A stretch of DNA of 64,000 bases, from assembly GCA_963971425.1 (NCBI GenBank), contig OZ020514.1, positions 19,937,406 through 20,001,405 on the forward strand, given 5' to 3'. The DNA is from Bryoerythrophyllum caledonicum (lineage: Eukaryota; Streptophyta; Bryopsida; Pottiales; Pottiaceae). This document shows positions 402 to 62,340 of the stretch, in pieces (position 1 is the first letter of the stretch; each line of letters begins with the position of its first letter). The notes under the pieces are model-generated. The model made no database searches, had not been told where the DNA came from, and saw only the letters and a program-made list of their open reading frames with translations. The translations under genes and the position numbers were made by a program.

Positions 402-1010
402 CCCGGTCACTACAGTCAATCCGGGTTCGCGGTGTTAGGGCCCGGTTTTAGCCCTGACACCGCGAAGACCGGCCCTTCTCCCCAAGCGCCTTTTCGCCTC
501 CTTCCCACGATAACTGCCACTCTCGCCCTCAATTATTTCGCGCTGCCCGTCTCTCTTTTCGGCACTTCTCGCCGAAAAGTCCCTTCGCCCCCGCCTTCTC
601 CGGATCACCGAAGTCTCCTTAACGGCCCGACAGGTGTACTCCAGAATGGCCCGCCCTTCTCGGCAGCCCCAAACTGCCATCCACACCATTTCGTACGACG
701 CCGTCTTTGGCACGATCATTGTGTCGTGTAGAATCCTTTCGGAAGGGGAGTGATTGTCTGCGCCTAAATTGAGTTCCTCGATCACAATCTTCCCATACAG
801 GACAGGTCGAATGGAGATTCTAGCGAGACGGCGCCACCAACCGTTGCTGATAACGGGGCAGTAGGGAGGAATTGGAGGCGTCAAGGGAGAAAGAAAGAAG
901 CTGGCGTGCAAGAGAAGGGGCTGGAGGACCTTGATGCCGCGATTAGGGTTTGGCCCGCACGCAGACTACCTGAAGACACACGGTCACAAGGTTCTTCGGA
1001 TGCGCGATTC
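402..1010. repeat. Left terminal inverted repeat (609 bp)
   Basis: This is the inverted counterpart of 9723-10338, ending inward at GGATGCGCGATTC. Near the tip is an internal hairpin: TCGCGGTGTTAGGGC pairs with GCCCTGACACCGCGA. The inner third corresponds to the first codons of the transposase as found in the right repeat, but the start codon is TTG here and the frame is decayed. The repeat should contain the promoter of the Ulp1-type gene. Confidence 0.92.
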
Positions 1011-1542
1011 GAAGAGTAACGCAATCCAAGCTTATCGCTGATATTCCCTCAGATTGTAGGTCTAGGCTAATCGGTTTAGGCGGCGTAGGCAATAATCATC
1101 ATCGCCATCACCATCACCATCAACGTGAAACCCTAATCCAGGCATGGCAAAGTTTTGTGTGGCGGCACCATTTCCAGCACTTTCGAACAGTGTTTTTTGC
1201 CCTCTAGCGACATATCCAGGATCTTCAAGCTCTGCGTCAACGATCGCTACTTCAAAACTCCAGGATTTTCAAGCCTCTGCGTCAACGATCGCCGACTGAA
1301 CTTTTCGGTAAGTTCCCTGCCTTTCTTGCTTTTTATTTAATTCCATTTCGGTAAGTTCTCTGTCATTCTTACTTTCCATTTCTTTTTGGTGATGCATACG
1401 GGCGGTCCTTCTTCCATTTCGTTTCAAATGTGGGGCGTTGGAAAGTAAGCTGTGTGAAGGTGTAGAAAATTTTGCAAAGCGTCCAGGTTTAGGGTTTAAG
1501 AGTTTTAGGGTTCCCGATAATCGTTTCTTGCGATAAGGTTTC
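1011..1542 (+). promoter_or_regulatory. Leader region of the Ulp1-type gene
   Basis: No coding region is evident. The stretch holds a short CAT/CAC microsatellite near 1097-1122 and an imperfect direct duplication of about 35 bp (CCAGGATTTTCAAGCCTCTG and what follows, at about 1215-1250 and 1260-1293). A possible 5'-UTR intron has a donor at 1308 (CGGTAAGTTC) and an acceptor near 1537, just before the start codon. The intron is inferred from splice-site look alone. Confidence 0.4.
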
Positions 1543-4500
1543 ATGTTCGGCAATGTCCTTCCTCGCAAGACCGTAAAAATGCCGAAGCGGCCGGTGTGTT
1601 TCTGCAAGCCACTGTTTGATGAGATCCCGGTGGAGAACAGGAAAGGGATTCTACCCACCTACAACAAGGAAACGGGGAGGATCGAGCAGCTATTCATCAT
1701 TGAGAACGACCACATTTGGCGCGATAGCTGGGAGGTGATGGAGGCGAGGGACCTTATCCTGGAGCTGCATGGACCGGACTCGCCCATCGTACCGCCTGGA
1801 CAAACCGGCCCCAAGCAGATATTGTGCATTCATTGCAACACGACGCACCAGAAGCACAAGTTCAACCTCCACCGGAACCATGCATTGTGCGAAGGGAAGG
1901 GGAAGGAGGGCGTGAAGATGCCGTCGTATCCCAATTTGGGCGTCAGGGATGTGGCGAACTTTGTGGCACGACTTCGGGATTGCCAGTCGGCTCAAGATGC
2001 AATTCAGGTATTTGGCACCATAGAGCCGATAGCCACGAAGAGGAGGCCTCGGAAGGGTGCCGATAATGAGGAGGAACCGAACAGTCGACGTCGAATTAAG
2101 CGCGGGAAGAAGCTGTCAGAGGAGGGCCCTACGCAGAAGCGTACCGCGGCGGCTTCTCGGAAAAGACCTCCGCCCCCGAAAGCTATGTCGAGTGACGATA
2201 CTTCTTCCTCGGCAGAGTCGGGAGGAGGTCGCAGCACAGATCATGAGGCCGATAACGCACGGACTCTGACTATGCACGGCGAGAAGGGCGGTCTTCTGTC
2301 CGGGGATGATGCCTCTAGGAATTCCGGTGCCGAGAACCCGATGTCGAAAGTCCGGAAGTCCGCACTCGCGCCGGCGCCCAAGAGGGATTCCTCCATCGTC
2401 CTCCGGAAGGCGGAGCTTGCGAAGCAGAATGTACCGAAGAAGGTGGCACAAGCTGAAGAGGCCACGAAGAAGGCGAGATTTGAAGAGTCCTTGAAGAAGG
2501 CATTCCGGCCCCCAGCAACGGCGAAAAGGCTTATGGGAATGTCTGTGGAAGAGACCGCGATGGCGAGAAGGCATCGATCCCCACCGGTGCAACAGCGGTT
2601 CAGAGAGACGAGTAATGCCGAGAGACCCTCCTACTCTGACGAAGGAACGCCGATAACCTTGCACAAATTCCCCCAATCCTCGGCCCAGAAGGAACAACGA
2701 CCGCCGCTGACATTGGCCAGTATACTTCGGTTAGGCTCTAATGATGGTGCGAATCCCGATAAGCGCCTCATTCTCCCGGCGAAATGTAGTAGGGAGCAAG
2801 CTTTGGAGTCGGAGAGGGCCGAGATGATACGGCAGGTGCAGGAGGACGCTGCGCGCCTTTTCCCGTTGAAATTGGTGCCCACCCCCGAGAGGAAGGTACC
2901 GATAACGCCGCTATATCTACTCCTCAAGCATGGTCTGCTCGACAGTATCACGATGGGGAGTTTACATTCCGAAGATGAGCTGTTGAAGTACGTCTTGTCC
3001 TTGGTGGAGTCTGGAGGCAGCCAGGGGAGGTTCCACCAGGCTCTCGGTGCCTGCATTTCCGAAGGGGTCGGCTTCAACGATAACCCTGTTTCGCTTCAAC
3101 AGTTGTCAAGCCTTTGCAATCTGGCAAAGAATCCGGATTACAATACAACGAAAGAGGTCTGGACAGAGGCATCGAGAGGAACGTGGGCATACATGACGCA
3201 TATGTTGGAGTGCGTCAAGTTAGAAGCGGCTTTGCAGGCCAAAAACGACAAACAAAAGCGGTGCAGGGAGAAGTTAGTCACGATGGAGATGAGTAGATTT
3301 GATGCCGAAAGGGCCGTGGAGACAGAGGCTATTCGATGGGACTTCAACAATCTCTTCGGGTATTGCGCGATGAACAAGATTCTTCGACCATTGCTGCCCC
3401 CACTGCCATGGACGCACAACATTGACGAGGCTCGAGATGTCGTGCACCGTCTAATTTCTATCAGGATCGACATTGCCCCGTCTCCGGCTTCAGCTAAGCT
3501 GCTGAAGTGTTACTTCGTTTGCAACGGGTTCTCGCGGGTGTAAGTTTTTCCTTCTCGCCACAAACTTGTCCCTTATCGTGTCTTCTCGCCCCTTATCGTC
3601 TCTCATAGTCCCTTATCGTCTCTTATCGTCCCTTATCGTCCCTTATCGTCTGTTATCGTCTCTTATCGTCCCTTATCGGTTTACTTGACTCCGTTGTTTT
3701 TCAGGGGCCGGAATATGTGCAACCCTAGCGTAATCCCCGGGCCTGCTAGCATTGAATTGTACTTGGACGCTCCAGTGGAAAATTGGGATGGGCCGTCTCA
3801 AATGTACGAAGTCCTGAGTCCCTTCCTCTTTGGAAGGGACGCATCCGATATGCACCTCCCGTTCTCGGCGGCGTTCGTGGCTCCGCGATAATAAGAACGG
3901 CGGGCGAGATTCTGTGTTGCGCTTCATCGAAATGGTCCATGCTCGCACTGTCGTGGACACGGCAAAGAGTCATCCAGAGGATTTCGTTCGACAGTGGTGT
4001 GCTGCTGATAAGGGTACCTACGAACACTGGGATACCCTAGACGAGAACTGCTTGGCAAGGGAGGATCTGGACTTCATGTATGCCGGCTACGTTCCACGTA
4101 AGATTTATCCGATAACCCCGTCATTCATCTAACTGTTTTCTTCCTCATTCTTGGTATCTCCGTTATTTTCCTGTGACTAACGATAAGGCTTTTGCAGGCA
4201 CTGTAGATCCTACCGGGGCACGCGAAAGGGATCTTGCAGAGGCAGATTGCAAGAACGCCGTATCGCGTCTGGTAAAAAGAGAGTGGGATTGGCGAGAAGG
4301 GCATCCAGTGACTTCACATGACGAAATTCGGCGGGAGACGTCTACCCGAACAAGGGACCTCGAGGGTGCAGCCACCCTCCTTCACATGGACGAAGGAACC
4401 TCGAATGAATTCCGCGTCCAGAATCGGTTTCCGGGGAGTAACGAAGACGAAGGATTCCCCGACAAGTGTATGGACGAAGTTACGGAGGAAGCACAAGAGG

Positions 4501-6566
4501 GGCCTAGCGACGAAATACGTCAGGGAGGTGTTCCCGATAGCGTCCAGGAAGAGCCCGCTTCTACAACGGTGAAGTCACCGGGCCGTCCCGCCGATAACCC
4601 ATCTCCCATGGAGTTTTCGTGGACACAAGCTATGAATGACCCTACCCTCGGCTTTCCGGAGTCTTCACAGTCGCTGATGGGGCTATCTCAATTCGACACC
4701 CCTCTTCAGCATGTTGTGTTTGGGGGTACAGGGGAGACGGAACCCGGCATTAAACCCCACCGTCTATCGTTCCCTCTGTCGAGTCAAGGTATTGAAAACC
4801 TGGACTCTACTGACAGTCCCCCGGTGGTTCCCGAGGCGCCTTCCGTGACACCCTTCGAAAGTCATCCAATCCCAGAGAAGGCTCCCTCTCCGGACTCCGA
4901 TTACGCTTCTCTGCCAGGGCCCGATAACCCTGCTCCTCCGCCAGAGCCCGAGAACCCGCCAGAGCCCGAGAACCCTGCTACCCCGCCAGTGCCCCAGAAC
5001 CATGCCAGTCCGCCAGAATCCATTGAGCCTGCTTCAGTGCCAGATCTTGATAGCCATGTTCAGGTATCTGAGCCCGATAAGCCTGCTCCTTCGCCAGAGC
5101 TCGATATGCCTGCTCCTCCGCTAAGACCCGTTCAGGCTCCTCCTCCGCAAGAGCCCGATAACCCTTCTTCAAAGGAGATGGACCCCGAGGAGATCAGACT
5201 GGCATTGCGCTTTATCAAGAAAGCACAGGAATCTGGGATGTCTAGTATTTGGGTTTATCCTGGACTCGAAGAGCGTGTTATGAACAGAAGGGAAGGACAG
5301 AAGGCGGCGTATACGTGCATGTCGAAGGAGAACCGCGGAGTATGTACGTCAGACTGTGTGTCCTGGGAGAAAGAGCCCTCGCTCTGCTACGAAGCCGAGG
5401 AGCATGACGCATTCATGATAGAGAAGAACCTCGACATTATTGTAGAGGTCCTAATGCGGCGGTGAGTGTCGTCGTCTATGTTATCGTGTTCTCTGACACC
5501 TACTGTTTATCATCACCTGTTGTCTAATGTCCGCTTTCTTCTGAATTGCAGGCCTCGTTTTATTCACCCGAAGGACCTGACTGGAGGCATGAGGTTTTTC
5601 GGTCCAGACCTTCGGCAAGCCGTGGATGTCTCGCTCGCACTACAGGACTGGCATTGCGTGCTAAAGGACAAGCGGGAAATGGAAGGCACATTTCTGGATT
5701 TCATCCTTAGGCATGTCGTCTACCGTGCGAAGGAGCATGTTCGAATCCAGTATCATCACACGCACAACTGGTTATCGGCGACTTTGCAGTGCTATCTGGC
5801 GGATGAAGCGAAGGGTTGGGATGACATCATGAGCTTTCTCAGCCGCTCGTTCCGTAGCACCACCAAGACGCCGAATACCCTTATCGTCCCTTACCACGAT
5901 AAGGGTCACTGGAGCGTATTCGTCGTGGAGCAAAGGCGAACGTATCACCTGGATCCAGCGAAAGGCATGCACAAGGGTCGGGAAGTGAACAACTTCATCT
6001 TCCTTGTGCACATGGGATGGGCAACCGCGAAGGGCGTGAGGATCGGATCTCGGAGTTGGACTGAATGGCAGAGTCGATCGCCGATAAGGTTGCCTTTGCC
6101 TAGTCAGAAAGAAAGCTGGGAGTGTGGTTTCATGGCAGGCTTGGGCTTTTGGCAGTACCTGATCGCACGTGGTGGGCGCAAAGAGGCGGAGGAGAAGACC
6201 GTGACGGAGACCAAATATCTGGACTGGGACGGGAAGAAGGCGTACCGATGGTTCATGCAAGCGTTGTATACGGAGATTGTCGCACCGCTTCCGTTCCACG
6301 ATGCCCTTAATCTATGTGGTCAGGATACGGTGGAGTTCGGAAGCGGAAGTCCGGACGTAGTTTTCGTGGAAGCCGGTACAGAGACGATGAAGAAGAAGGA
6401 AGTCCCAGTTCTTGGTATTTCGGAGACAGTGGGGGATCGTGATCTTCAGGGCTTCAACGTGCTCACAAATCCACCAGTGACTCGAGGAAGGCGGAAGAAG
6501 TCAACCGCGCCAAAAAGCCCGAAAAAAATGAGAAAACCGAAGGGCACCACCAAGACGAAGAAGTAG
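1543..6566 (+). CDS. Ulp1-type cysteine protease fusion protein of the MULE, four exons, one frameshift
   Basis: Exons are 1543-3539, 3705-4097, 4198-5461 and 5552-6566, all with GT-AG introns whose phases agree. Apart from one extra base in exon 2 near 3870-3890 the chain would be about 1,555 residues. The N-terminal part has a cysteine/histidine cluster (CIHCNTTHQKH then HRNHALC, residues about 98-120) that could be a DNA-binding finger, followed by basic, disordered sequence. Exon 3 encodes proline-rich repeats around PDNP and PENP. Exon 4 has the C48 (SUMO/Ulp1) signature: GHWSVFV (His), HLDPAKG (Asp), and a Gln before WECGF (Cys). Such proteases cleave SUMO-like modifiers; in MULEs their target is unknown. 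The frameshift may be real inactivation or a sequencing error. Confidence 0.82.
3540..3704 (+). repeat. Intron 1 made of TTATCGTC tandem repeats
   Basis: The intron begins GTAAGTTTTT and ends TTTTTCAG. Most of its body is a run of imperfect 10-base units CCTTATCGTC, with nine copies of TTATCG. This is the densest cluster of the element-wide hexamer. Confidence 0.85.
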
Positions 6567-6943
6567 GCGATAAGGGGGGGTGTTGTACATAGTCGATAGA
6601 CTCCAGGAATTTGTACAGATTAATAGGATGCCGAAGTTGTACATTTCATTCATTGTAAATGACAATTTTTTCGATAGCGTACATAAACGGATTTTGGGAC
6701 CCCCTTGTAGAGGCTTGTAAGCGGAACTTAAAATCCAGTCTTTGCCGATTATATTGAATGTTGAGTTTTAACTTTCAAACTAAAGAAATATCACTTCAGT
6801 GGAAATTTCAGCCGATGCATGGAACTTAATCTAAGAGCATCTTATCGGCAGTATTCTACCGATAAGATTACTAATGGTTATCGGTGCAGGTTTGTAGCTG
6901 AAATCCTCTGCCCTTTATACTCATCCACATCGGTGCCGATAAC
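6567..6943. other. Intergenic spacer between the convergent MULE genes
   Basis: It lies between the stop codons of the two convergent genes. No coding potential is visible. Four CGATAA/TTATCG sites cluster at 6841-6940. It should hold the 3' UTRs and polyadenylation signals of both genes, which I cannot place exactly. Confidence 0.6.
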
Positions 6944-9900
6944 CTAAGTCGTTTCTTGAGTTAGTCTTCCGCTAGGTGGAACGGACCTCACCCGAAAAGC
7001 TCTGGAATCCAGGAAGTCATGCAACCTTCGGAGCCTCATTCCAAGACCGTCTTCATTTGTGGGGAGCGGTGCAGCTATATCCTGGAGTGGATGAAGCATT
7101 CCGGCTTCGATTTCAGCCTCCAACCTTGAGAGGGTGGCGTCGGTGTTGCGCAAAGCTGCATCCAAGTGTCTTGCTAGCAACGGTTGGCGATAAGCCTTCT
7201 CGAGTAGCTTCAGGACAAGCTGATGCATACGATCAAAGTCGCATACCCATGTCTCCCCTAATTCTCCAAGGTTGGAAGTCACTGGGGTTACATCTCCAGC
7301 TTCGGTATCGGAGGGAACATCATTATCGGGGAAGCCCTCGGTATTCGGGTGTCGACCATTGTCTTGGCGGAGAAGATTCGTCATTCCTCCTTGGATTGTG
7401 CCGCGAAGGGAGCCCAGATATCTAGCAATTTTGCCCTCCGCCAGGTCAGGTCTTGTCATTTTCAGGACCTTAACCTGGTGCTTACAGATGTTACCTTTCT
7501 GGGAATGAACACATTGGCAGACGGCCCATTCGGTGCATGGATTGTATACCGCATACGTAATGTGTCTCCTATTCGAGGATTTAACGTATGCAGGACCTCC
7601 CGACCACTCGGGCAAGGTGACCACATTATCGGGAATTGTGTTTGCTTGGTTGATTGCATTGACCATGATCTGCCGCTGCCTCTTGTTCTTTATAAAACCG
7701 TTTAGCTTACACCAGTGACTGTAATCATACTTCTCGATGACATTTCCAGTGAGCTCATAAATAAGCCAGTCCATCCTTCGGCCGATAAGCTTCCTTTTGG
7801 ATTGCCGGAGCACTGCTTTCATGTTAGAATGGTATGATTCGATCGCTGCAGTGGTGTCCTGGCCAGCATGGGGGATTTTCCGGTCTCCCACAACCCACAT
7901 TTTGATTTTCGGGAGCCATTCCTTGTCGAAGTACTTCCAGTATGCATCAGCGTCTGGCAAGAGAGCCTTAGCTTCGCCGTAAACGTGCCGCACCCACTCT
8001 ACCAAATTCCACACCTTATCGCCAGGAGCTCTCGCCGAAGGGTCTTGGAAGTCACTAGGTGTCTCTGATACGTACATAAGTGAGCCCACAATTCGCAAAG
8101 CTCCGGCCCTTGTCTCCATGTCTTTCAACTTAGCACATGCATTCTTCTGCCACGCTCGACGAACATGCCAGAGACATAGAAATAGATGCGAGTGCGGCCA
8201 AACCTCCCTGTGATAACCCGACACGCCGATAAGTACAACTCGCTGAAGCCCGTCACCCGATAACGTAAGAATGCTAAATTGCTTACCAAAGAGAGTTGAT
8301 CTCATTATCGGCGTCGTCAAGTACAAAGGCAGTGGGTCTCCAGTCCGGCCTTATCTGCACCAACTTCTGGTTCAGAGCGCGCATCCAAGGGACGAGATCT
8401 GCTTGTTTGGATTTCGCAGTGATCACGAAAGCCACTGGAACACCGTTTCTCCACTCGTCGAATACCATCATCGTGAAGAGCGGATACTGGACACGCAAGC
8501 AAGGAATTAAGCGGTATGGGAGTGAGTGCTCCTAATTTTTATACGGACCCTACATGGAGCACGGTAAAGGTATGTGTACCTTTTTGTTGTTCGTTGCGAA
8601 TGTCCCGTCTATAGCAATAATGTTATCGTGACTGTATTTCAGCATCATGTATGTCTGAAATGGGGTTTGAATCCCAATTACGAAGGGTACGTTATCGGCA
8701 TTCAGCACTCCGTCGACCTTGCTGCCCGGGTCTTGGTAGTAAAAAACCGTACCTCGGTTTTCTCGGACCCACATTCTCACACTCTCAGCGTCGTTGTCGT
8801 GTTTCTTGTATAGTTCTTGCGCACGGACTCTGCATATGTTGCGGATGTCCTCCATGCTAAGGAAACAATCCCGAGAAGGCGTAAGAGTGCCCTCATCCCG
8901 TGCCTTCAGTACCAGCTTCTGGTGCTTCTGTATTATAGCTGCCATCGGAACTTGCTCTTCAAATTGCCTACGAACCCAAAGCCTTACTTCCTCCGATATG
9001 TACTTCCGAAAGCGGAGCTTTCCCCTCTGCACATTGTCCTTATCGTGGACGATGAGGCCCTGTGTGTCGACATGTTCCGAGCAAAAGTACCCTATCTCGG
9101 CGATATATGGTAGAAAATAGTACCTCTTTACGTAGAATCGACATTGGCAGCCCACTTTCATAGAGCCCCCCTCCTTCGCATCAGTGGCACGAGGGCCTTT
9201 CTGGCCAGCGCCGGAAGTAAGTTGTTTCCCTTTGTGATTGTATTTCGATGACGTTGGTGTCATTTCGGGCGTGATAGCTTGGATCTTGTCCCTGTTGTCT
9301 TTGGGACCGTATTGACAACGCCATCTGCTTATCGGCGTTGACCATCAGAGATACGTGCGGTACTGAAGAGATGTAATGGCACAGCCGATAAACAGATCTA
9401 CCGTGTATATTGAATGTGATATCAGAGGTCGTGATTCACTTACCGCTGGTACTCGATGTGGCAGTTCCACCGATAGTGCGTCTTCTCGCCGACGTTTGTG
9501 GGGTCGTTCTTGTCGCGGACGAAGGTAGTCTCTACATCCTTTCGGCCAGACTGCTCACCCTCCACGAAATCCGAGACCCTATCCCAGGGAATGTAGGCGA
9601 TAAGCTTGGACTGCTTCCTCTTCGATGATTGCGGATCGTCTACGAACCTCGTATCATTCTCCGCCTCCATGTTCCACCTAAGACATTTCCACGTCAAAAT
9701 CCCTGGAGGAGGGTTCTGTAATGAATCGCGCATCCGAAGAACCTTGTGACCGTGTTTCTTCAGGTAGTCTGCATGCTGGCTTTCCCGGAACGCGGCATCA
9801 AGGTCCTCCACCCCCTTCTCACGCACGCCAGCCGGTTTCTTTCTCCCTTGACGCCTCGATTTCCTCCCTGCTGCCCCGTTATCGGCAACGGTTGGTGCCG

Positions 9901-9964
9901 CCGTCTCGCCAGAATTCCCATTCGGCCTGTCTTGGATGGGGAGATTGAGATCGAGGAACTCCAT
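6944..9964 (-). CDS. MULE transposase, four exons, intact 909-residue frame
   Basis: Exons on the minus strand are 9964-9444, 9324-8580, 8486-8287 and 8207-6944. Donor and acceptor sites are canonical, phases match at each junction, and the sum is 910 codons including stop. The start lies in the right terminal repeat and opens MEFLDLNLPIQ, which contains a DLNxP-like motif. A cysteine-rich FAR1-like zinc-binding region (GCQCRFYVKRYY) follows. The catalytic DDE residues are placed at IIAIDGTF, FVLDDADNE and AAIESYHSN, with the conserved LCLWHVRRAW in between. A SWIM zinc finger (CQCVHSQKGNICKH) is near the C-terminus. The enzyme should bind the terminal repeats and cut and rejoin DNA. No disabling change is visible, so the element may still be autonomous. 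Confidence 0.9.
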
Positions 9965-10338
9965 TCACGCGGAGACAAGCACTCCCCTTCCGGCAAGGTG
10001 CTACATGGCACAATAGATCGTGCGAAAGACGGCGCAGTACGAAACGATGTGGATGACACTTCGCGCCGGCATCTGCCGAGAAGGGCGGGTCATTCTGGAG
10101 TACACGTGGCGGGGGCGAGAAGGTGACTTCGGTGATCCGGAGAAGGCGGGGGCGAAGGGACTTTTCGGCGAGAAGTGCCGAAAAGAGAGACGGGCAGCGC
10201 GAAATAATTGAGGGCGAGAGTGGCAGTTATCGTGGGAAGGAGGCGAAAAGGCGCTTGGGGAGAAGGGCCGGTCTTCGTGGTGTCAGGGCTAAAACCGGGC
10301 CCTGACACCGCGAACCCGGATTGACTGTAGTGACCGGG
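9723..10338. repeat. Right terminal inverted repeat (616 bp) with transposase promoter and start
   Basis: It pairs with 402-1010 with few mismatches. Unlike the left arm it keeps the transposase ATG (9964-9962) and about the first 80 codons, so the coding region is partly inside the repeat. The same tip hairpin is present (CGCGGTGTCAGGGC with its complement). The promoter should lie between 9965 and 10338. Confidence 0.92.
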
Positions 10339-10347
10339 GTAAGATCA
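10339..10347. repeat. Right target-site duplication of the MULE (GTAAGATCA)
   Basis: An exact copy of 393-401, immediately outside the right terminus. Confidence 0.93.
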
Positions 10348-12774: not shown

Positions 12775-12897
12775 GGTGGGCAGAGACGTCCCCGCCCCAC
12801 ACGGGCAGGGCGAAGACATCTCCGCCCCTGTCCCGTATGGGGCGGGGATGTCTCCGCCCCCCACACGGGCAGGGGCAGAGACGTCCCCGCCCAGATA
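12775..12897. repeat. GACGTC palindrome array, distal copy
   Basis: A short GC-rich tandem array of units of the form GGCGGRGACGTCYCCGCC alternating with CACACGGGCAGGG. Units are self-complementary around GACGTC. A minus-strand frame (13149-12736) crosses it, but its C-terminal half is just the translated repeat. Confidence 0.75.
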
Positions 12898-13364
12898 GCT
12901 CCTCGTCAACGCTCCTGTCATCCGACGGTTGTAAAACTCGATGGCAATCCCTCTACATTCAACCATGTATTCATGCGAGGGCATGTCCGGATTTGGTGAC
13001 TTCTTCCGCCTCTTCCCGCTCGATGACGACGGATTCAATGATCCCGAAGTCAACTTTGTGTTGGTGGACGGAAGAACCGTCTCATCAACATTATCCAAGT
13101 CCATAAATATTGGGCGCTTCTCCATCGACCTACTTCCTTCTCCCACCATATGTGATTGTCAACTCCCTACCGTGGTCGAAATTCCAAGTTGATGGTTTTA
13201 AAAATACCTGCAAAGAGTCTGGGTACAATAAATGGGCCAAGCCCAATCACCCACCAAACTCACTTTCAGGCCACAAAGCAAACTGACACGTGAGGCCTAG
13301 GGAGTGGACTTGGCAGAGAATAAAGACAAAATCTCCCCTATTTATATGGTATAGGGTTTTGTTT
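12898..13364. other. Spacer between the two palindrome arrays
   Basis: No gene that I can support. A minus-strand frame from 13149 opens MVGEGSRSMEKRPIFMDL and contains a basic SGKRRKKS stretch before running into the repeat. It could be the end of another decayed transposon gene. Confidence 0.3.
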
Positions 13365-13632
13365 GCGAAGACGCCTCCGCCCTACCTGGGCACGGCGGAG
13401 ACGTCTCCGTCCCTGCCCGGTAGGGGACGGAGACGTTGCCACCCCTGCCCGGGTAGGGAATGGACGTCTTTGCCCCTGCCCTGTTAGGGGCGGGGACGTC
13501 TCCGCCCTGCCCAGGTAGGGCGGGGATGTCTCCACCCCTGCGTGGGGTGGGGCGGGGACGTCCCCGCTCCATACGGGCAGGGGCGGAGACGTCCCCGCCC
13601 ATGCTGCTGAGACATCTCCGCCCCTGCCCGGG
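13365..13632. repeat. GACGTC palindrome array next to a promoter
   Basis: About eight imperfect units of 30-36 bp, each with a palindrome around ACGT such as GGCGGAGACGTCTCCGCC, separated by CCCTGCCCGGGTAGGG-like spacers. It ends about 30 bp before a TATA box and 190 bp before the start codon at 13820. GACGTC is a C-box-type core bound by plant bZIP factors, so an upstream activating role is possible but inferred. Confidence 0.75.
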
Positions 13633-13669: not shown

Positions 13670-13819
13670 ATCGTGCACACCCCTAATTGTCCCCGCCTCA
13701 CATACTCCCTCTTCATCCACCTCTTAATTGAGTTGGTTGTGGGCGTCGTGTGAGGACTTCATCCGTTCGCATCACATATATTATTCAGATTTTCCCCACC
13801 TATTGCCACGCCGATAAAA

Positions 13820-16087
13820 ATGAATAAAGAAGAACGAGACAAGAGTCAACTACGATCGGAAAACAAATCGCGGAAGAGGTTGCATGTGCTTCGGAATCCT
13901 GTTAAATTGGCTTTTAAAGGTTGGGAAGACGTTCCGGAGCCAAAGAGTTTCGAGGATTGCGCAAACTTCATCGAGTGGTGCCATATCGACAAGGCTTTTT
14001 TGGTGGAGCGACACAATTATCACCAACGCTTTCACAAGGCAAATTTATGGAAGTGCACCGACGAGGCGTTCAAAAATCGGTGCATTGAAGTATACCAGGT
14101 CTTGTACGACATCCCTTATATCAAATGCAATGAAGTATATCTCTTCTTTGCGCAAGGTGTCCACGCGGAGGTAAAGTTGGGCAAGAGGGTGGATTGGTCC
14201 ACCTTGAAAGCCATTGGAGATAGCATGAAAGTGCCTTCTCCGGCGAATGGATTGATTCCAATGGGGACACGGAGGAATCCAGAAGGCGGATTGGGCAAAT
14301 TGTTGGCAAAGATTGAATCGGTCGACACGTACGAGACCAATCCCTCAAACACGGATACAGACTCTGACGGATCCCACGTTCCAATCACAAAGAGCCAAAG
14401 GACACAAGCGCGCACCAAACGAAGGAGGGCAGAACAGATGGTTAACATAGTCGTTAACGATACCAATAATGAAGTTGTAGCTCAGGTACAATCCCCCGCG
14501 GTTGTTGATCGAACGTTAGAAGCCTCTACTAGTGTTAATTTTGCCAACACTATCCAAACCTTGCTCAATCAATTGGAAGGGAAGACGACAGAACTATTGT
14601 CATTGCGCGATGAGGTTCGCAAGTTGAGATTCGAAGTCAATGATAAAAACATTGTTATTGACCAGCAATGACGTGATATGGAGGAGCTCGGACTTGCCCT
14701 ACAAGCTAGTACAATGACCACAGAAGATCGGAATCGACGACGGGAGGAGGAAGGGCTTGTATACGTGTCAACCCAAGACGATTCACTGTCGTTTGATGAG
14801 GCCCCTACCAACACAGACAAAGCTATGGTCAATAAAGAAGAGGGTGCGGCGGGTGACGGCGGCAAAGAGCTAGCTAAAGCGCTTGAAGAGAATTCAAGAC
14901 TACAAAGTCGCTTGGATGTGTTGGTAGAACATTACTATCAATGGAAGTTGGCTTGCGTCTTCATGGTCGATTGATCCCGACAATTGGTGGCGGAATTCCA
15001 AAAAATCGACAACAACTATACCGAAAACAACCAGGAGAGGGTGTTTGGTTTGACGTCGTGGGCCCTTGTAGATGATCTTTTCAAGATGGATGAAATGGCG
15101 ATGGTGAAAACCGCTGGTGGGCAAACAACCATCGATTGGTCCCATTACAAATGGGATTTCAAAAAGGAGGTTTCATCCACCCTCGATCATCAGGGCAACC
15201 CCATGTTATTGTGGCCACAACCTTCGAGCTTCGTATCCGACGGTACGACTTGCTCAATTTATCTAAACCCATTTGGTCCAGAAGGTGTGATGCATCTAGG
15301 CACTTGTGAGTACTTGTACCATCCATTTTGCTTGATTAGCTTGATGGTTGTATGCCGGCGGTGCCCATTGTGCAAGGCCCCTTTTCAGGAGCGATTGTAC
15401 GAACTTTTTGGATTAGTTCCATACATGCCTCCACATTGGGAGTTCAATGTGACGAACGCTCCTGATCAATCACTTATGTGGAGAAAGGATTTGGTGTGGA
15501 GTTGGAAACTGAAGATGCACTCGTTGGATAAGATGCACCTCTCAAACGAGTGGGGTTGGGAAAGGGACCCGGAGCAGATTGTCCGGGTGTGCAAGAATTT
15601 GATCCCGTTAAAGGACAAATACGGTCAAGGAAAACGAAATTTCTTCTACCAATGCTTTAATGGCCATTGGGAGGAGAACGTGGAGCAATTTCGTTTCGGA
15701 CCTCATCCACGGCAATGGTTGTAGGCCGTTGATGGAGTTCGCATCACAGACGACAACGGGGATCGCATTTCTCACGACGTCCACCAACTGGACGCGCAAG
15801 AACTATGACAATTATCGGAATCAGAGTGGAAAGAAATTTTCCGAAATGACGAAATGGACTTCTTGCTCGATGTGCACAGTCCAGGGACATGGCAAGCGCT
15901 CGACCAGCTCATGCAATCCCAAATCCTAAGGGCCGTGTTGGATGAAGATGGACCAGCGAGGAGAACACGATCGGCATCTCGTAGACTTGTATTGGGTTTA
16001 GATGAAGATCTCCCTATGCACGTAGGGGCATACGACAACGAGGCAGGGGCGAGTGACACTACTAGTAGCCCGATGAATATTGACAAG
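13820..16087 (+). pseudogene. RING-like zinc-binding protein gene of a mobile family, four in-frame stops
   Basis: A single frame runs from ATG 13820 to about 16087 (some 756 codons), broken only by TGA 14669, TGA 14972, TAG 15722 and TGA 15804-15809. The N-terminal half is unrecognised (RNPVKLAFKGWEDVPEP). A basic stretch (RTQARTKRRRAEQ) and coiled-coil segments follow. About two thirds along is a RING-like cluster: TCSIY, LGTCEYLYHPFC and CRRCPLCKAPF, then RLYELFGL. The C-terminus is acidic and ends SPMNIDK before a possible donor site. RING-type domains often act as ubiquitin ligases, but the activity is unproven. Several stops fit a one-base change from CGA, CAG or TGG, as expected of methylated repeats. 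It is probably part of the same element as the following gene. Confidence 0.6.
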
Positions 16088-22680: not shown

Positions 22681-22804
22681 TTGACCAAAATAGGTATTAG
22701 ATATAAATATGGAATTCACTATGATCACAATGATATCACAATCACTATAATAAATACCAAGTATTATACAGATATGAACATGATTACAGTTACTGCGAGA
22801 CAAG

Positions 22805-23470
22805 GTATTGATTTTGCTCATTACTAGCAAAATTATTGATTTTCCTCAATTTGAGTAAAACTACTGATTTTGCTCATTGTAAGCAAAATTACTGAATTTG
22901 CTCAGTGAGATCAAAATTATTGAGTTTGTTCATTGCGAGCAAAATTATTGATTTTGTTCATTGCGAGCATAAATACAAAATCTTCTTAGAGCAAGCAAAA
23001 TTAGTCAATGTTTTGCTCAGTGCAAGAAAATCATTTATTGATTCTCATCGGACCAAGCACAACAAATGAAAAAACTTTGCAGAAGTAACATTGATGATTC
23101 TTGTCTATGCGATTAGATTCGTGATTCACCTCATTAAAGGCAAAATTTGTAGTTCTTCTTAATTTGAGAAAACTTAGTAATATTCCTAAGTCCAAGTAAA
23201 TTTTTTTATTTGCTCAAAGCGGAGCAAAGTTAAGGATTTTTCTTTGTACAAGAAGAGTTCTGGATTTTGCTCAATGCGAGAAAAATTAAAGATTTTGCTC
23301 AGTGCAAGAAAAATTAAGGATTTTGCTCAGTGTGAGCAAAATTAAGGATTTTTCTCAATGCAAGAATTATTAAGGATTCTGCTTAGTGCAAACAAAATTA
23401 AGAGTTTTTCTCAATGCGAGCAAAGTTAACAATTTTGCTCAGTGCGAGCAAAATTCATAAATTCCGTACA
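22805..23470. repeat. Hairpin-unit tandem array (TTTTGCTC...GAGCAAAA)
   Basis: About 20 imperfect units of roughly 28-45 bp. Each carries TTTTGCTCAGTGCGAGCAAAA-like sequence, an inverted repeat with TTTTGCTC and GAGCAAAA arms around a 4-6 base loop, joined by ATTAAGG or TATTGAT linkers. The right-hand units (23220-23460) are the most regular. It lies upstream of the DUF7869-type gene on the minus strand. Confidence 0.8.
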
Positions 23471-23614
23471 AGGTGGGCAAAATCATATGTTTTACTTACA
23501 TAATGTGTTGTAACAAATTTGCTATCGCTTAAATAAGACACCAAACACTTGGTTGTCCAAACATGCAAAGTCAAACTTATGCGCTCCAACTACATAAAGA
23601 TTATCATTATATGG

Positions 23615-24814
23615 TGTAATCGTAAAAAGTTCTATACATAAAGATTGAAGAACACAATCCAAGAACCCTGTAATATGATTGTTCTTTTTAGGGAGAGTCG
23701 ATTCGTCTAGCGTTTAATGACTAAGGTCACTTGTTAAAGTTAAGATTCTCTAATTTCTATAAGGAGTTCTTTAGATTTCTATGTTATTGGGTTATCCTTA
23801 TAAAAATAATCGCTCAATCTATTCTAATTTATCATTAAATTCTATAATTGTCACTGCAAATCTTAGAATTCTACAATTCCAAGGCAACAATCATACATTC
23901 TATGGTGTAAGAATTACTTATCAGCCTGCGAGGTCCACCATCTTCAATCTTCAGAATCCCACTCCCAATAACGCCGTATGTCTCTACACCATCATATAAT
24001 GCTAGGTTTGCCTCACCACACTCGAAGCAACTAAGGATTACTCCTACAACGACCACATGTACGTGCAGACAATATCCTATGACAATAGCTCAGAGTTATC
24101 TGTGATGCTACAATTCCTAGTCTTTACACCGGCTGTGTTTACACTATTATTATCTGTAGAACAAACCAATTTTTATTCTACTTAAATAGTTTTTAAATTT
24201 AGGTCATAGGATCACAATCCGTGAATCACTCCTATCAACCTACATACTACGACATTATACCACTGTAATAAATCATGATCCTCACAGCAATTCGTCGTTT
24301 ACACTTAAATTGCAAGACTTGCTTTACAATTAAATTCCTTCTTTATAATATAATTTTACCTTGAATTCTTATTCTGAAAAGCAGTTCACAAAATTATATA
24401 ATTTTTGTATCACTTAATCACATATAATCAGGACATCTTTCAGTCAATTTCACTCTTCTCTTAAGTGCAAATCACTTAGGATCATCCAGTCTTAACATAC
24501 TAGTTTTCTCTAGGCTAGGACTCACACACTCTTCCGCTCAAATTCTAAACATTGTGTGTGGCGCTGGAAATGGCTGTTTTTCCTGACTATATAGTTCTAC
24601 AGTTAGAAAAACAGTTTCTTTATAGTTGTAACTTCCATTGTAGAATTAAAACCTTTCGTGTAGACCAATGTCTTTTCAAATCTCTAATCCTTTAAAGGTT
24701 GCAACTTCTTTTTACTCTAACTATTCATACTTCTACATCTTTTAAAACATTTTCTGTAGACTAATTTCACTAAAATTCAAAAATTGTACGTAAAAACTAA
24801 AAAATCCGTCTACA
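23615..24814 (-). repeat. 3' LTR of gypsy retroelement 2
   Basis: The outer end is TGTAATCG at 23615. The part shared with the 5' LTR ends at 24749. The true inner end may be CA at 24814, because the following minus-strand sequence AAAGTCGAGGGCTA just before it looks like a polypurine tract and the LTR would then begin TGTAGACGG. In that case the other LTR lacks its first 65 bases. Confidence 0.8.
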
Positions 24815-39279: not shown

Positions 39280-40414
39280 TGTAATCGTAAAAAGTTCTAT
39301 ACATAAAGATTGAAGAACACAACCCAAGAACCCTGTAATATGATTGTTCTTTTTAGTGAGAGTCGATTCGTCTAGCGTTTAATGACTAAGGTCACTTGTT
39401 AAAGTTAAGATTCTCTAATTTCTGTAAGGAGTTCTTTAGATTTCTATGTTATTGGGTTATCCTTATAAAAATAATCGCTCAATCTATTCTAATTTATCAT
39501 TAAATTCTATAATTGTCACTGCAAATCTTAGAATTCTACAATTCCAAGGCAACAATCATACATTCTATGGTGTAAGAATTACTTATCAGCCTGCGAGGTC
39601 CACCATCTTCAATCTTCAGAATCCCACTCCCAATAACGCCGTATGTCTCTACACCATCATATAATGCTAGGTTTGCCTCACCACACTCGAAGCAACTAAG
39701 GATTACTCCTACAACGACCACATGTACGTGCAGACAATATCCTATGACAATAGCTCAGAGTTATCTGTGATGCTACAATTCCTAGTCTTTACACCGGCTG
39801 TGTTTACACTATTATTATCTGTAGAACAAACCAATTTTTATTCTACTTAAATAGTTTTTAAATTTAGGTCATAGGATCACAATCCGTGAATCATTCCTAT
39901 CAACCTACATACTACGACATTATACCACTGTAATAAATCATGATCCTCACAGCAATTCGTCGTTTACACTTAAATTGCAAGACTTGCTTTACAATTAAAT
40001 TCCTTCTTTATAATATAATTTTACCTTGAATTCTTATTCTGAAAAGCAGTTCACAAAATTATATAATTTTTGTATCACTTAATCACATATAATCAGGACA
40101 TCTTTCAGTCAATTTCACTCTTCTCTTAAGTGCAAATCACTTAGGATCATCCAGTCTTAACATACTAGTTTTCTCTAGGCTAGGACTCACACACTCTTCC
40201 GCTCAAATTCTAAACATTGTGTGTGGCGCTGGAAATGGCTGTTTTTCCTGACTATATAGTTCTACAGTTAGAAAAACAGTTTCTTTATAGTTGTAACTTC
40301 CATTGTAGAATTAAAACCTTTCGTGTAGACCAATGTCTTTTCAAATCTCTAATCCTTTAAAGGTTGCAACTTCTTTTTACTCTAACTATTCATACTTCTA
40401 CATCTTTTAAAATA
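39280..40414 (-). repeat. 5' LTR of gypsy retroelement 2 (possibly truncated)
   Basis: It is 1,135 bp and nearly identical to 23615-24749. Differences seen are T/C in AATCCAAG, G/T in TTTAGGGAG, A/G in TTCTATAAG, C/T in ATCACTCC and C/T at the last CA. If the LTR truly extends to the 24814 equivalent, the first 65 bases are missing here. Confidence 0.88.
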
Positions 40415-44142: not shown

Positions 44143-45166
44143 GTGTTAGATGTGGCCTGAACGTGATGGCATTGACGGGGCTAAGATATTTCTTTGCCTA
44201 TGGCATTTGCGCAAGGCCTGGCTTGAGAAAGCTATGCAAAAAATCAAGGCCAACTACCTACGTACTTACATTTTGAAGGGTTGTTTCGATTTAATGTACG
44301 AGACTGGAATTCTCGAGGGCAAAACTACAGTGCAGAATTCCAGGGCCAGGTTCCTTCAGTTGCAAAATAAGAATGGAGACGGAGTTAAGACTTTCTTTAA
44401 CTATTTTGAAAAGACTTGGATTTCAAAACTCGATATGTGGATTAGAGGGTTTAGAAGTATTCTACATACAAATCAAGATACAAATGCCGTTGTGGAGAGC
44501 TATCATGCTAATCTAAAGTCCATATTGTCTACTTCAAGGCAGAAGTTTAACGGCCGTCGCGTGGACTGGTTGATACACTACCTAGTCAAGGATGTCCTCA
44601 CTCACTTTTGGTACCCAGTTCTGTGCAAGAACGGCATTGCGTACGTGGCGAGTGAGACGAACTTTCCAATGGTTTGGATGGTAGCAAGCCCTAACACAGA
44701 CGAGGCTCATTGTACGTGTCCTCTAAGGATGCGGAGGAATATTTGCAAACACGTTGTGAAGGTGTTTAAGCTCATCAATGTCGGTGTGCAGGACACGACC
44801 AACGTACGGTAGGCTGGAACTCTACGGGGTATCATTGCTAAGGAAAGAATTCCTGCTGGCATGGATCCTCCTAAGGCGGGCGGACTACACGACGCGACAC
44901 ATACCCAATGTAAATATGCCAGAGAAATGGATACATCGAATCCGCAAAAACAAATGGCGGATATCATGTCCGCTTGGGCTCATCTCCAGGACTTTGTTAT
45001 TCAGAATGAAGACTTGGGGGGACATTTGTTGGCTAGCCTCAATGAATTGAAGGGCAAGGTCTCAAGCTTGAAGGCAAGAGCTGATGTTGGCCTCCTACAT
45101 CCAGCATCTCAAGCATCGTTTCATTTTAATGAAGGGAGTAATACCAAAAGGCGATTCAAAGCTTGA
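44143..45166 (+). pseudogene. Last exon of a second MULE transposase
   Basis: It begins MWPERDGIDGAKIFLCLWHL directly after an acceptor-like AG, at the same protein position as the last intron of the transposase at 6944-9964 (there EVWPHSHLFLCLWHV). It keeps the catalytic-Glu motif NAVVESYHANLK and the SWIM finger CTCPLRMRRNICKH. A TAG at 44810-44812 interrupts the frame, which then runs to a C-terminus with VGLLHPASQ. Earlier exons with the first two catalytic Asp residues are not found in front of it, so this is a fragment. Confidence 0.78.
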
Positions 45167-52740: not shown

Positions 52741-52912
52741 TCAAGACCACAAGCTCTATTTTACTTCATAGGGATTCTAGTTGGGAGAAACACCAGAAGT
52801 TCATTAGCACTTAATAAAGAATTGTATCAAGACCACAAGCTCTATTTTACTTCATAGGGATTCTAGTTGGGAGAAACACCAGAAGTTCATTAGCACTTAA
52901 TAAAGAATTGTA
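52741..52912. repeat. Perfect 86-bp tandem duplication
   Basis: The segment beginning TCAAGACCACAAGCTC at 52741 is repeated without visible change at 52827. Confidence 0.93.
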
Positions 52913-54204: not shown

Positions 54205-54464
54205 CCTCCCCGATCAGTCCCCGAGCCTCGGCACTATCTCCCAGTCAAGTTGGGGGATAGTGCCGCCTGCCCGGGTGCCATAGCTGCCCGCCTCTCCTTG
54301 GGCCTCCTATGCTCCCAGACGCTCCCTGCGTTCCTGAGCCTTCCCGCTTCTTCCTGCTTAGAAGTTACGGTAGTCTCTCCTTCCTTCGCAGCAGCTCTCA
54401 CTCCGCTCCAAAAACCAGTTATCCTAAAACCCTATGAGTTGCAACATGTACTCGTGTTATGTAC
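54205..54464. repeat. Left arm of a large inverted repeat, outer part
   Basis: It pairs in reverse with 62862-63130: for instance GGCACTATCTCCCAGTCAAG, CCCGGGTGCCATAGCTGCCC and CATGTACTCGTGTTATGTA occur here and, complemented, there. The arm continues after a small inserted element, at 55521-55545. Confidence 0.8.
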
Positions 54465-55520
54465 TTTGAGATGCAACTAAATAGCCGGCCACAATTGAAA
54501 CCAAATCGAGTATATGGTACAAAGCCACCGCTCCTAACTACAAAAACTCTAGTCCCATTACTAATGAACTGATCTCAATGAGGTGCCAATTGAGAAACCA
54601 CTCCTACCTCCAAGAAGAACTCTAGTTTCACTCGGAGGGCGACGTGAACGAAGCCTGTTCATGTTACGCCTTGCAACAAGAGGAGTATTCACAGCTCACA
54701 TGGGCTACTCTCCATCAAGTAGTCCTACCCCGTTGTGATGGTCACCGACAATCAGAAGTACTCAAAGTACTTGAAGTACAAATCACAAGTACATAACATA
54801 TGAAAGCATAAAAGAACACGAGTTTTGAGAAGATTTACATCATGGTGATTGGTTTCTGCAGATATCCAATGACATGCACTTTGCGATTTAGAAGTTCGCT
54901 GATGGTGAAAAGAAGTGTATGCACATCTCGAGATGCACATAATTGTAAACAAATAGCATCACACAAGGTTTTAGAGTGTCAAGAGCACATATTTCATTAC
55001 ATGTGTAATTATGCATGCTCAAGTTTGCAATGTGAAAAAGTGAGGGTCACTGGATTGGTTGATTCTATAGTTTCATCACATGCACTGTGATGGAATGATG
55101 TGCACAACAATTTCAGCATCAATTTAAGGTGATGTGCATTGCAAATTCATCTGAGGAAATCATTCAAATTTTAGGGCTGTCAAGGACACTGGTTTCTGTG
55201 GTAATTATTGCAATTTCTACACTATGTACACACAATTTGCAGCACAATATGAGGTGGTGTGCACGGCATCAAGGTCTTAGGGTCACTGGTTTGTGCAGAA
55301 ATCCCATCACACGATGTGCACACAAATTGCACCGGTGCCCTCCAAGTGAAACTAGAGTTCTTCTTGGAGGTAGGAGTGGTTTCTCAATTGGCACCTATTG
55401 AGGTCATTGAGGTCAGTCCATTAGTAATGGGGCTCGAGTTTTTGTAGATAGGAGTGGTGGCTCTGTAACATATTCTCGGTTTGGTTTCAATTTTGGCCGG
55501 ATATTTAGTTGCATCTCAAA
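54465..55520. mobile_element. Non-autonomous inverted-repeat element (MITE-like), 1,056 bp
   Basis: The ends TTTGAGATGCAACTAAATA and its complement extend into about 190-bp terminal inverted repeats with some mismatches. It is flanked by TAC on both sides (54462-54464 and 55521-55523), a 3-bp duplication. The middle (54840-55320) has about three degenerate copies of a 120-bp unit with GGTCACTGGTTTCTGCAGA and GTGCACACAATTTGCA. No transposase is encoded. A 3-bp duplication fits PIF/Harbinger or CACTA types; the superfamily is unclear. Confidence 0.8.
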
Positions 55521-56066
55521 TACGTAATGCCCGGGAAGGTTTTGGGCACATTCATTTTGAGAACCCTCCCAGCGCAATATCATTCCGCGAAAGGGGCTCC
55601 CGTAAATCTCACGAATAAAACACCTCACTAGAAAACCACCTCACCAGAAAAACCCCGGGCAGCTATTTGTAAACTTTTAACATGTTTAAAAATTGCCAGA
55701 AATTGTTTCATGCTCCCTTTGTATCAAATAAAGCGACAGATATTTTATTGAGTTGACATTGAAATGATTGAAGTTGATTAATTTTGTGTTTTCTAACCAT
55801 TAGCACAATTAACAAAAGTGTTTGCAGAACATCCAATTGTGAAATGCAGTATCAAGTAATTGTATGCAGCTTTTAGCTTGCAAAAAAATGATTGTTCCCA
55901 AGTTTACAATCGAATATACCAAGTTGAAATCAAATTGCAACAACAAAAACAACTATCATCTACATGTACATCCTATATCTACAATCTACAGTTCGAATTG
56001 ATCCATTCTACAACATTAACATCTTCACTTTCGTTGCATGTGGTGAACTTCACATCAGATGTTGTT
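55521..56066. other. End of the left inverted-repeat arm, then non-coding sequence
   Basis: ACGTAATGCCCGGGAAGGTT (about 55522-55541) is the inner end of the arm and pairs with 62713-62732. The rest, up to the end of the recombinase-like gene, shows no gene. Confidence 0.5.
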
Positions 56067-59000
56067 TCATTGCTTCCCATCAACTCCCTGAAAACATATA
56101 ACATCCACAATTAGAAATAGTCATATATACAATACCTTCACGTGATGAAAGACAAATGTAGACAATACCTTCACGTGATCGAAAATCGCCGCCATCGTGA
56201 CAACATCTACACCACCAGAGAAATTGATTACATTGCAGCTAGATACTGATCCAATTAAAATCCCCTTGTCCACCTAAAACAAATGGAAAAACACATCAAA
56301 GCAGTATTAGTGAAAAACTTAATTAGCGGGCACCTTAGAAACAACAATGAATGACTGTGGGCATAAGAAACACATGCAATTTATGTTGACATACATTTTC
56401 GGCATACTACAACACCACCAAATAATAACAATTACTTACAAACTCTCCAGTGCAACACTTTTCAAATCCATAACTAGACTTTGGAAAGATTGTCTTCTCC
56501 AGTTGAACATTGCCTGATGTCTTGTAATCTGCAATATTTTCCATTGCCGCCTTGCAATCAGCTTCCTGTGAAAATGAGGATTTAAGTAGAAAAGTCACCA
56601 AAAGAACAAAAAAAAATCATCCGAAAATAAAATTAGGTTAACGAAGTGATTACCACTTTTGTCTTTGCCTTCTGCTCTTCCTCGACTAAAACTTCGCTGA
56701 ACTTGAAGGCACGTCCAGAATCAGACACAACTGAAGTACCGCTTATAATTCTCTAGCACGCACACATGGCGGCTTTCTCGCTCGCAGCATTGTACTGTTG
56801 GTAACTTTTAATGTCATGATGTCGAGTAATTGCCATGCCCTTCTCGCAAGGAATATTTGTAGCTTCCATACGGGAAATCCCCATTCTCCTTAGGGTTTTA
56901 TTCAAAAATTTGCGGCCCTTCAAATCAATCCCTGACGCCTCGACCAAGTTCCTTACCATAAGTCCGAGAGTGTTTTTTCCCACGGCACGCGGCTGAAACC
57001 GAATGGCATCACCAACCTTCCACTTTAGCTTTGACATTAAGAAAATCAGGTGAGGCAAATCCTTCCACTTTGCGTTCAGCTTTTGCACTGGGGGGCGATA
57101 ACCAATAAGGTCCTTCCACGCTTGAATGAACTTCGGATCCGCCCAATCCATAGGCTTTCTCAAAGAGTGTGCAGCATAGTTCGCCACGCTGTATTTGAAA
57201 GTCTTTGTAAGAATTGGCTTGTACCTACAAAAAAACAAAAATACATACATTCAGTAGATACAAAAGTATAAAACATTCCTTACATTTAGTTTATTTTGCT
57301 TCTACAGTTCTATTGTAAGGTCACACATAGAAAAAACAAGAACCAAAACAAAGAAACATCACCTTAATATCTCCAAGCCATCTTCAAAGAAGAGCTCGAA
57401 TTGAGCCATATTGGTCGAACGAATTTCATCTTGGCCGCGAATGAAAAAATTCTTACAAAGGTACCAGTGAACAGTACTATTAACGCCACTAGGCGTCCAA
57501 ATATCAGCCACCTTACATTGTAACACGGCCACTTCTTCCTGCAGAGTAAAGAGGTCACTTGTTTTCACACGAACGCCTAACCCCCTCTTGAATGAACGCT
57601 TTCCAACTTCAGTCCCCGCAATGAAAACCTTTCTGTACCTGACATCCTTAAAAATATCAAAAGGAACTTCAGATACAGAGGTTTCAAGAATACGCTTCTC
57701 TTGTTGATGACAGATCACACGGCCCAAAATCTGCTCCCACAACTCGCCGATCGTCATTTTTATTCCGTGCCCCATAACTGACCACCACTCATTGAAAGCG
57801 TTAGACGCTCACTTCTCGTTGTGACTGCTGCGACGCTCTCCACCACCAGCAACATGACGAACTTCAACGTCATCAAGGTCACGAAAGCGAGATGACTTGG
57901 AACCTGCGGGAGCATTGCCTAGATCCGAATCCTCCGGAAAATGGCCACTCTTCAGAGCAAAGGTGCCCTTGCAATCATCATCGGGATCATCATGATGAGA
58001 ACGATCCTCCACATCATCAGCATCTTCATCATCGTCTTGCTCTTCCTCGTCATCCTCTTCTGTAATATAACCAAAAATAAAATTACTAAAAAAACACATC
58101 AATACAGCAAAATAGAGTAAAACTAACGCAAATTACCATTCAAATCAGAGGGCTCATGAGCTGCCACACGATCCACTTTAGTGACGCCGAGAGCAGAATC
58201 TTCCTCAATAGCTGCAAAAAACAACAATCATAAATTAAAACTAACTACATTTACTAGTCTCCTGGTTATTACTCCTGGTTATTTCTTTCCCTGGTTTCGT
58301 ATACATTTCTTGGTTGCATAAACTTACCTTTTACATTCCAGACTGCAATAAATTTCCGAAGTTCTTTTTACTCTTTACATTTGTTTAACATCTCATTAAA
58401 AATGGTGATAATATTCAACATGTGATCATACCGCAATTGCAAGTTCGCCCACACAAACCGCATCCAATAGAATCTAAACCAACAAGCAAAGCATTAGACT
58501 AAGCATTGCATTCAAAATTTGATATATCAAAAAATTGAACTAAAAAATAGGCAAACACAAAAAGAGACACAAAAATCAAAAAAACAAATAGCCACTAAGA
58601 CATACTATCGCCAGTTCTGAGATCGCCTCCAGAAACGTCTTCAACGTCAAAGCCTACACATAAACAACAAACTATCATTCAATCACATGCAATACACATA
58701 TCACAAGACAACACATGGGACAAAATATTAAAAAAAGATAATTACCTCCACAGGTAACAACCGCACCTCCACCAACACTGTCCACGTTACTACCTGAACA
58801 CAAACAAAACTATCAAAAAATAGAAAAATCAACTAAAACAAGTAATAATCTACAATTGCGATAGTGCACAAGCGCTGTCATACGCCAACGGGCCGGCAAA
58901 ATCAAAATATATAATTTGAAAACAAGAAAGCAGCCATCATATAAAAAAAACAATACAACAATAATACCTAAAGATATAAACAAAGGATACCTTCAACAAA

Positions 59001-61400: not shown

Positions 61401-61589
61401 GTTTCATCTAGTCTTCACTCAGGTTGAGTAGCTTCCCCAAAGTGGATCTTGATGGGGTGGTATTGGATGGAAATGGCAATGTGGTGGTAGTCTGGTGCTT
61501 CTACTCCACCTGTGAGCTGACGAGAGAGGAGCTCGAGTCGCCTATGCGCAAGAGAGGCGATTCGTGGCTCCATTCCAAGAGCATTCGGC

Positions 61590-62075: not shown

Positions 62076-62340
62076 GCTTGCATCACGTGAAGGAATCTGT
62101 GCACGACAATGGACGCCATCGACTGGTGTGTGCTCTGGCACCTTCAACACTGCCACGATCCATAGTGTTTTCTATTGGTGGCGTAGATTCGGTGTGAGAT
62201 TACGTAGATTTCATGTGTGTCTGCGTGGAATCACTCTCGTAAGTAGATTGTAAGTGTGAATTTGTTGGGTTTCGGCGCAGTCGCGGTTATGGGGCTTTGT
62301 CTTTGCATTCGATCCACATCTTGGACTTTCTTCAGAATGA
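62076..62340. other. No gene seen
   Basis: Continuation of the captured region without recognisable coding motifs. Confidence 0.35.

Follow-up and report, generated by a model that had tools for sequence, protein, structure and literature searches.

The closest described parallels to the locus reported here are VANDAL transposons of Arabidopsis with their VANC proteins. VANC21 binds the word YAGTATTAY, which abounds in VANDAL21 but seldom occurs elsewhere, and brings methylation down across the whole element; VANC6 and VANDAL6 use other words (AGTTGTMC), and VANC proteins carry the domains DUF1985 and DUF287 (PMC5735166). The VANC targets are described as non-coding tandem repeats, with an effect that extends from there to coding regions (PMC10398659). 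Here we describe a Mutator-like transposon (MULE) of 9,937 bp from the moss Bryoerythrophyllum caledonicum, located at 402-10338 of a 64-kb window (the whole stretch of contig OZ020514.1 that was analysed) and densely marked along its length with the hexamer CGATAA/TTATCG. Like VANDAL21 (Hiun) and VANDAL6, as these are presented in PMC5735166, it is a MULE with a transposase, a large second protein and a short word that is dense in it, private to it within the window, and lies partly in an intron array; the words differ, however, and those of the two VANDAL elements sit mainly in non-coding tandem repeats, whereas 26 of the 52 hexamers here are in exons. VANDAL elements have no terminal inverted repeats (TIRs) or short degenerate ones, in contrast to the long TIRs of this element, but some VANDAL relatives bear TIRs according to the portion of PMC6446971 consulted, which makes their absence a soft criterion. 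Binding and hypomethylation have been demonstrated for VANC; the system put forward here is a prediction from sequence.

Neither DUF1985 nor DUF287 was found in the second protein of the element, which we call open reading frame 1 (ORF1), in any piece at E <= 1 or in its N-terminal part and exon 4 at E <= 10, a search in which the HMMER filters may lose weak matches. With neither domain found, long TIRs and half of the copies in exons, the element is, on the sequence features tested, not a VANDAL/VANC member. An earlier sequence-only reading had raised the possibility of an independent, VANC-like system: its DNA-level target fits the codon, variant, flank, strand and dipeptide tests given below, while the likeness to VANC stops short of membership. 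Kaonashi (KIU) and other Ulp1-bearing MULEs of Arabidopsis, grapevine, melon and rice, presented as non-TIR MULEs of flowering plants in what we drew from PMC13317346, resemble the element in a second gene that ends Ulp1-like, here a weak match under the cut-off, but differ from it in that it has long TIRs and that the nearest named transposase comes from a moss. No CGATAA transposon or comparable moss MULE system appears among the papers listed in the searches, as judged by title and start of abstract. In maize, the TnpA protein of Spm recognises short sites repeated within the Spm element and opposes methylation, but Spm is of a different superfamily and the TnpA sites are found close to its termini.

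The element and its hexamer

The limits of the element follow from its ends and target site duplication, both read off the sequence, and from counts and inverted repeats. An exact 9-bp duplication, GTAAGATCA, flanks it at 393-401 and 10339-10347, and the insertion site is an open reading frame with a weak match to a retrotransposon gag family (PF03732, E 0.0008, under its cut-off). The left TIR (402-948) comprises arms at 402-628 and 718-948, and the right TIR (9784-10338) arms at 9784-10014 and 10112-10338; the outer arms, 402-628 and 10112-10338, are 97% identical, and the inner ones, 718-948 and 9784-10014, 85%. The same site of the inner TIR reads CTGATAAC on the left (847-854) and CCGATAAC on the right (9879-9884), and in the motif's CpG the two sides differ as C/T. 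A MULE transposase domain (PF10551, E 1.7e-13, above its cut-off) completes, with the duplication and TIRs of hundreds of base pairs, the features of MULE membership. The transposase is encoded by four minus-strand exons (exon 1, 9444-9964; exon 2, 8580-9324; exon 3, 8287-8486; exon 4 including the stop codon, 6944-8207) that give 909 amino acids with no internal stop. ORF1 occupies four plus-strand exons (exon 1, 1543-3539; exon 2, 3705-4097; exon 3, 4198-5461; exon 4, 5552-6566), and a spacer (6567-6943) separates the two convergent genes. Exon and intron borders of both genes were set by eye from GT-AG and reading frame, and everything reported here concerns a single copy of one MULE family, read within this one window.

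CGATAA/TTATCG occurs 52 times in 402-10338 (27 CGATAA, 25 TTATCG) and 12 times in the other 54 kb, so the count over both strands given in the sequence-only reading, with about a dozen copies elsewhere and few expected, is reproduced. Markov models of order 1 and 2 expect 4.1 and 4.3 copies in the element, an excess of about twelvefold; orders 3 and 4 expect 14.2 and 37.6, but these orders already contain most of the hexamer. Counting all 6-mers, a check suggested in that reading, places CGATAA first in the window: in a scan of 4- and 8-kb segments at 1-kb steps, with copies less than 30 bp apart collapsed, the top result was CGATAA in 2001-10000 (40 vs 3.6 expected, log10 P ~ -27), and none of the listed best 6- and 7-mers is a rival private word elsewhere in the window. 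The excess has no counterpart in the rest of the window, as had also been claimed; in segments of 9,937 bp taken downstream of it the count never exceeds 4 copies, and the stretch around a MULE transposase remnant at 44150-44812 is motif-poor (2 copies in 11 kb).

The copies are spread over every type of sequence in the element, in agreement with the earlier description. The exons hold 26 copies in 7,399 bp (6 in ORF1 exon 1, 4 each in exons 3 and 4, and 11 in the transposase, among others) and the non-coding parts 26 in 2,538 bp, making the density higher outside exons; the hexamer is present in five of the six introns, five times in the spacer, and in the TIRs at 508, 9879 and 10227. Nine of the 52 form one array of 10-bp period at 3568-3678 within ORF1 intron 1 (3540-3704), and the remaining 43 are dispersed. 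Motifs 508 and 10227, which are one TIR site counted twice, are also the outermost copies, leaving the terminal 106 bp at each end without the hexamer. With the array taken as one site (44 sites), spacing is more even than random (coefficient of variation 0.68, P 0.004; largest gap 547 bp, P 0.001). The observed/expected CpG ratio of the element is 0.99 (0.95 with the hexamer masked), compared with 0.71 outside it.

The non-array copies and the variants of the core define a site with the consensus VCGA[T>G]AA[G/C]. In the 43 non-array copies the core is preceded by C (27), A (9) or G (7) and never by T, and followed by C (18), G (18), T (6) or A (1); outside positions -1 to +8 the flanks carry at most 0.17 bits of information, that is, the outer flanks are unrelated, and duplication of some longer segment is on this ground rejected as the origin of most of these copies. 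CGAGAA is a weaker enriched variant, with 15 copies in exons vs 5.6 expected and 7 outside vs 1.9 (four of the seven being two TIR sites doubled), and it shares the context of the main word, with G or C following in 21 of 22 cases and T preceding in 2 of 22; the CGAGAA of the array, at 3583, stays in 10-bp register with its CGATAA neighbours. CGAAAA is raised outside exons (8 vs 2.7) but not inside (7 vs 5.3), and CGACAA, TGATAA, AGATAA, GGATAA and CAATAA have no clear excess in the element. The variant pattern, as read from these counts, is that of a recognition site tolerant of substitution at a single position. A GATA-factor site, hinted at in the sequence-only reading, was rejected: AGATAA, TGATAA and GGATAA occur 1, 2 and 2 times in exons vs 4.4, 4.8 and 4.4 expected, and 0, 3 and 1 times outside vs 1.2-1.4.

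Codon choice and protein sequence

Synonymous codon shuffling within each exon piece, which preserves the protein and its codon usage, gives an expectation of 6.9 +/- 2.3 copies in the exons against the 26 observed, a number reached in 0 of 5000 shuffles; the earlier contention that codon bias is insufficient is thus borne out, the excess surviving codon-composition modelling. The sense strand carries 21 exon copies vs 5.2 expected (0 of 3000 shuffles), and the antisense strand 5 vs 1.8, a count that 66 of 3000 shuffles reach and that is on its own a modest excess. Where Asp is followed by Asn or Lys, 18 of 29 X-Asp-(Asn/Lys) triplets are written xxC GAT vs 4.1 expected from the codon usage of the same genes, compared with 11 of 124 other X-Asp triplets vs 15.6 expected. 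Copies of the hexamer in other reading frames spell, among others, Pro-Ile, Leu-Ile, Leu-Ser and Tyr-Arg. The Markov expectation, the codon shuffle and the synonymous choice together rule out composition or codon bias as the cause; what is directly observed is a sharp excess that depends on neither codon usage nor strand.

A protein search with the transposase returned two relatives, P0001 from the moss Ceratodon purpureus (44% identity), the nearest named transposase, and P0002 from a 3.8-kb contig (47%); 72 and 21 pattern matches in viral_contigs and genome_contigs yielded 0 confirmed relatives, and the TIR end had 0 matches in viral_contigs. Asp-Asn and Asp-Lys pairs number 15 in this transposase vs 7.5 expected, compared with 1 vs 4.1 in P0001, 5 vs 4.3 in P0002 and 0 vs 1.5 in the short MULE remnant. 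Seven of the 11 coding sites could be aligned by eye. At two, HDKDN and ADNVP, the residue pair is common to the transposase and P0002; at KLIAY, HDNII, ADNEI, GDKVW and KLIGR, the pair is missing in either relative that has residues there. This comparison, with two relatives at ~45% identity, shows only that the conserved protein does not dictate the hexamer. Since the pairs are doubled here and not in the two relatives, the hexamer has apparently altered the protein.

Candidate readers of the hexamer

We are close to certain that the hexamer is under selection. We propose that selection has given the element an address, VCGA[T>G]AA[G/C], repeated densely over its full length and to be read by a sequence-specific DNA-binding protein, and that the most likely reader is its own ORF1, with a SUMO-protease-like C-terminus; VANC21 and VANC6 offer precedents for a transposon protein of this kind. 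Bound to motif clusters in the genes, introns, spacer and TIRs, ORF1 would strip or prevent silent chromatin, perhaps through removal of SUMO from silencing factors, and only address-dense DNA, i.e., that of its own family, would remain expressible. The pattern over the whole element points to a DNA reader that gains from full-length coverage, and the protease-like end of ORF1 suggests loss of SUMO from silencing complexes; it is from these features that we infer the identity of the binder and the effect of binding. That exons are tiled as well might reflect an effect that extends less far than that of VANC, so that the protein must sit everywhere. ORF1 acting as the reader in an anti-silencing role is, in our analysis, an evenly balanced proposition. 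The full proposal, a self-addressing anti-silencing system apart from VANDAL/VANC in a TIR-bearing MULE of a bryophyte-like plant, with a SUMO-protease-like reader and a hexamer that overrides synonymous and even amino-acid choice, is tentative, and we think it somewhat more apt to fail in some part than to hold throughout.

Several observations on ORF1 itself weigh against this proposal. The sequence-only reading spoke of a protein from 1543-6566; the gene there is spliced and has a frame change. Within exon 2 the change of frame coincides with the CGATAA of 3886, where the TAA of the motif closes the upstream frame; the protein of this copy may therefore be broken, and the motif may itself mark or cause the break, or the frame change may instead be an assembly error or an unrecognised intron. 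The Ulp1/C48 protease-like exon 4 scores 15.2 bits against PF02902 (E 0.02), under the curated cut-off of 20.7, and matches SENP2 weakly (E 0.093), an alignment in which the catalytic residues His, Asp, Gln and Cys fall in line. Pfam searches returned no known domain in exons 1-3, and no homologue was found at E <= 10 among 6945 candidates, restricted to proteins of 0.55-1.75 times the length of ORF1. A finger-like pattern reminiscent of BED fingers, C-x2-C-x11-H-x5-C, was seen by eye near the N-terminus in exon 1, for which no Pfam family at E <= 10 and no zinc-finger chain in the PDB was found; a PDB search with exon 1 likewise gave no relative of note among solved structures. Exon 3 contributes proline-rich repeats (~4905-5165), and AlphaFold2 models from single sequences reached a mean pLDDT (predicted local distance difference test score) of 36.6 for the N-terminal part and 34.7 for exon 4, too low for use. 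To these points must be added that half of the hexamers lie in exons, unlike the mainly non-coding words of VANDAL21, and that a single copy of the family is the basis. The evenness of spacing hinges in part on the treatment of the array (without it, P 0.028 for the coefficient of variation and 0.24 for the largest gap), and the CpG ratio fits low methylation but equally youth or base composition.

The reader might instead be the transposase. Its binding over the length of the element would then compact the DNA or mark it for transposition, and anti-silencing would play no part. The transposase frame is open in this copy, whereas that of ORF1 changes, and transposases with short repeated subterminal sites exist, as in Ac; however, the outermost 106 bp at both ends, the expected binding zone, are free of the hexamer, which is not concentrated towards the ends, and we consider this alternative unlikely. 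A host DNA-binding protein that opens chromatin or drives transcription, and whose sites the element has gathered, would suit a site that is short and sharp, as host factors read. A precedent exists in BEAF-32B, a Drosophila boundary protein with a BED finger that reads clustered CGATA with no clear rules of spacing or orientation (PMC5021357, in the part consulted); the word is similar, but BEAF-32B is an animal host protein, and the ORF1 finger, seen by eye only, is unsupported by the Pfam and PDB searches. A promoter factor would need sites near starts rather than throughout exons and introns, and the 12 copies in 54 kb outside the element, with two in the 11 kb around the MULE remnant, also speak against a host factor, which seems to us improbable.

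Action of the hexamer in RNA, through splicing, export or stability, could be argued from the 21 of 26 exon copies on the sense strand, but codon shuffles likewise give more sense than antisense copies (5.2 to 1.8). Apart from the array, which runs antisense to ORF1, sense and antisense copies in the introns number 3 and 4, and the hexamer is present in the spacer and TIRs as well; on these strand and placement data we judge an RNA-level motif very unlikely. A bias of mutation or copying without selection (slippage, conversion or base composition) accounts for some copies: the nine of the array clearly come from tandem duplication, the exon 3 repeats may have multiplied a few more, and 508 and 10227 are a single site. 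As an explanation of the whole it is scarcely credible, given that the outer flanks of the 43 dispersed copies show no relationship and given the outcome of the codon-shuffle and synonymous tests.

The surrounding window and significance of the proposed self-addressing

The window contains other features besides the element. The remnant of another MULE transposase at 44150-44812 is 31% identical, where aligned, to that of the element and has a SWIM-like end, with no dense private word nearby. A Ty3 polyprotein in the window has 4767 matches, among the matches listed being Physcomitrium, Riccia and Marchantia as well as flowering plants, ferns and an alga; together with the transposase relatives, these matches make a bryophyte host likely. 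Just upstream of open reading frames at 13754-15724 lie tandem repeats of the GACGTCTCCGCCCCTGCCC type (12795-13604), rich in GC and in part palindromic, and a 28-bp tandem repeat with TTTGCTCAATGCAAGCAAAAT-like units forms two blocks at 22769-23473. A 300-bp direct repeat (23615-23914 and 39280-39579) is 99% identical over a distance of 15.7 kb, an 86-bp tandem duplication at 52741-52912 is perfect, and nested inverted repeats at 54223-63112 pair 54465-54640 with 55337-55520 and 54223-54439 with 62890-63112 (90-98% complementary).

In the literature examined, as far as its text was covered, no anti-silencing system that is encoded by a transposon and specific for a word is described other than VANC of Arabidopsis. 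If the proposal is true, another such word, unlike those of VANC and from a distant lineage, would suggest self-addressing as a general transposon strategy. A hexamer written in exons can be detected from sequence, as the top k-mer that survives codon shuffling, and the prevalence of such systems is thereby directly testable. If the proposal holds, the needs of DNA binding would shape the transposon's own proteins.

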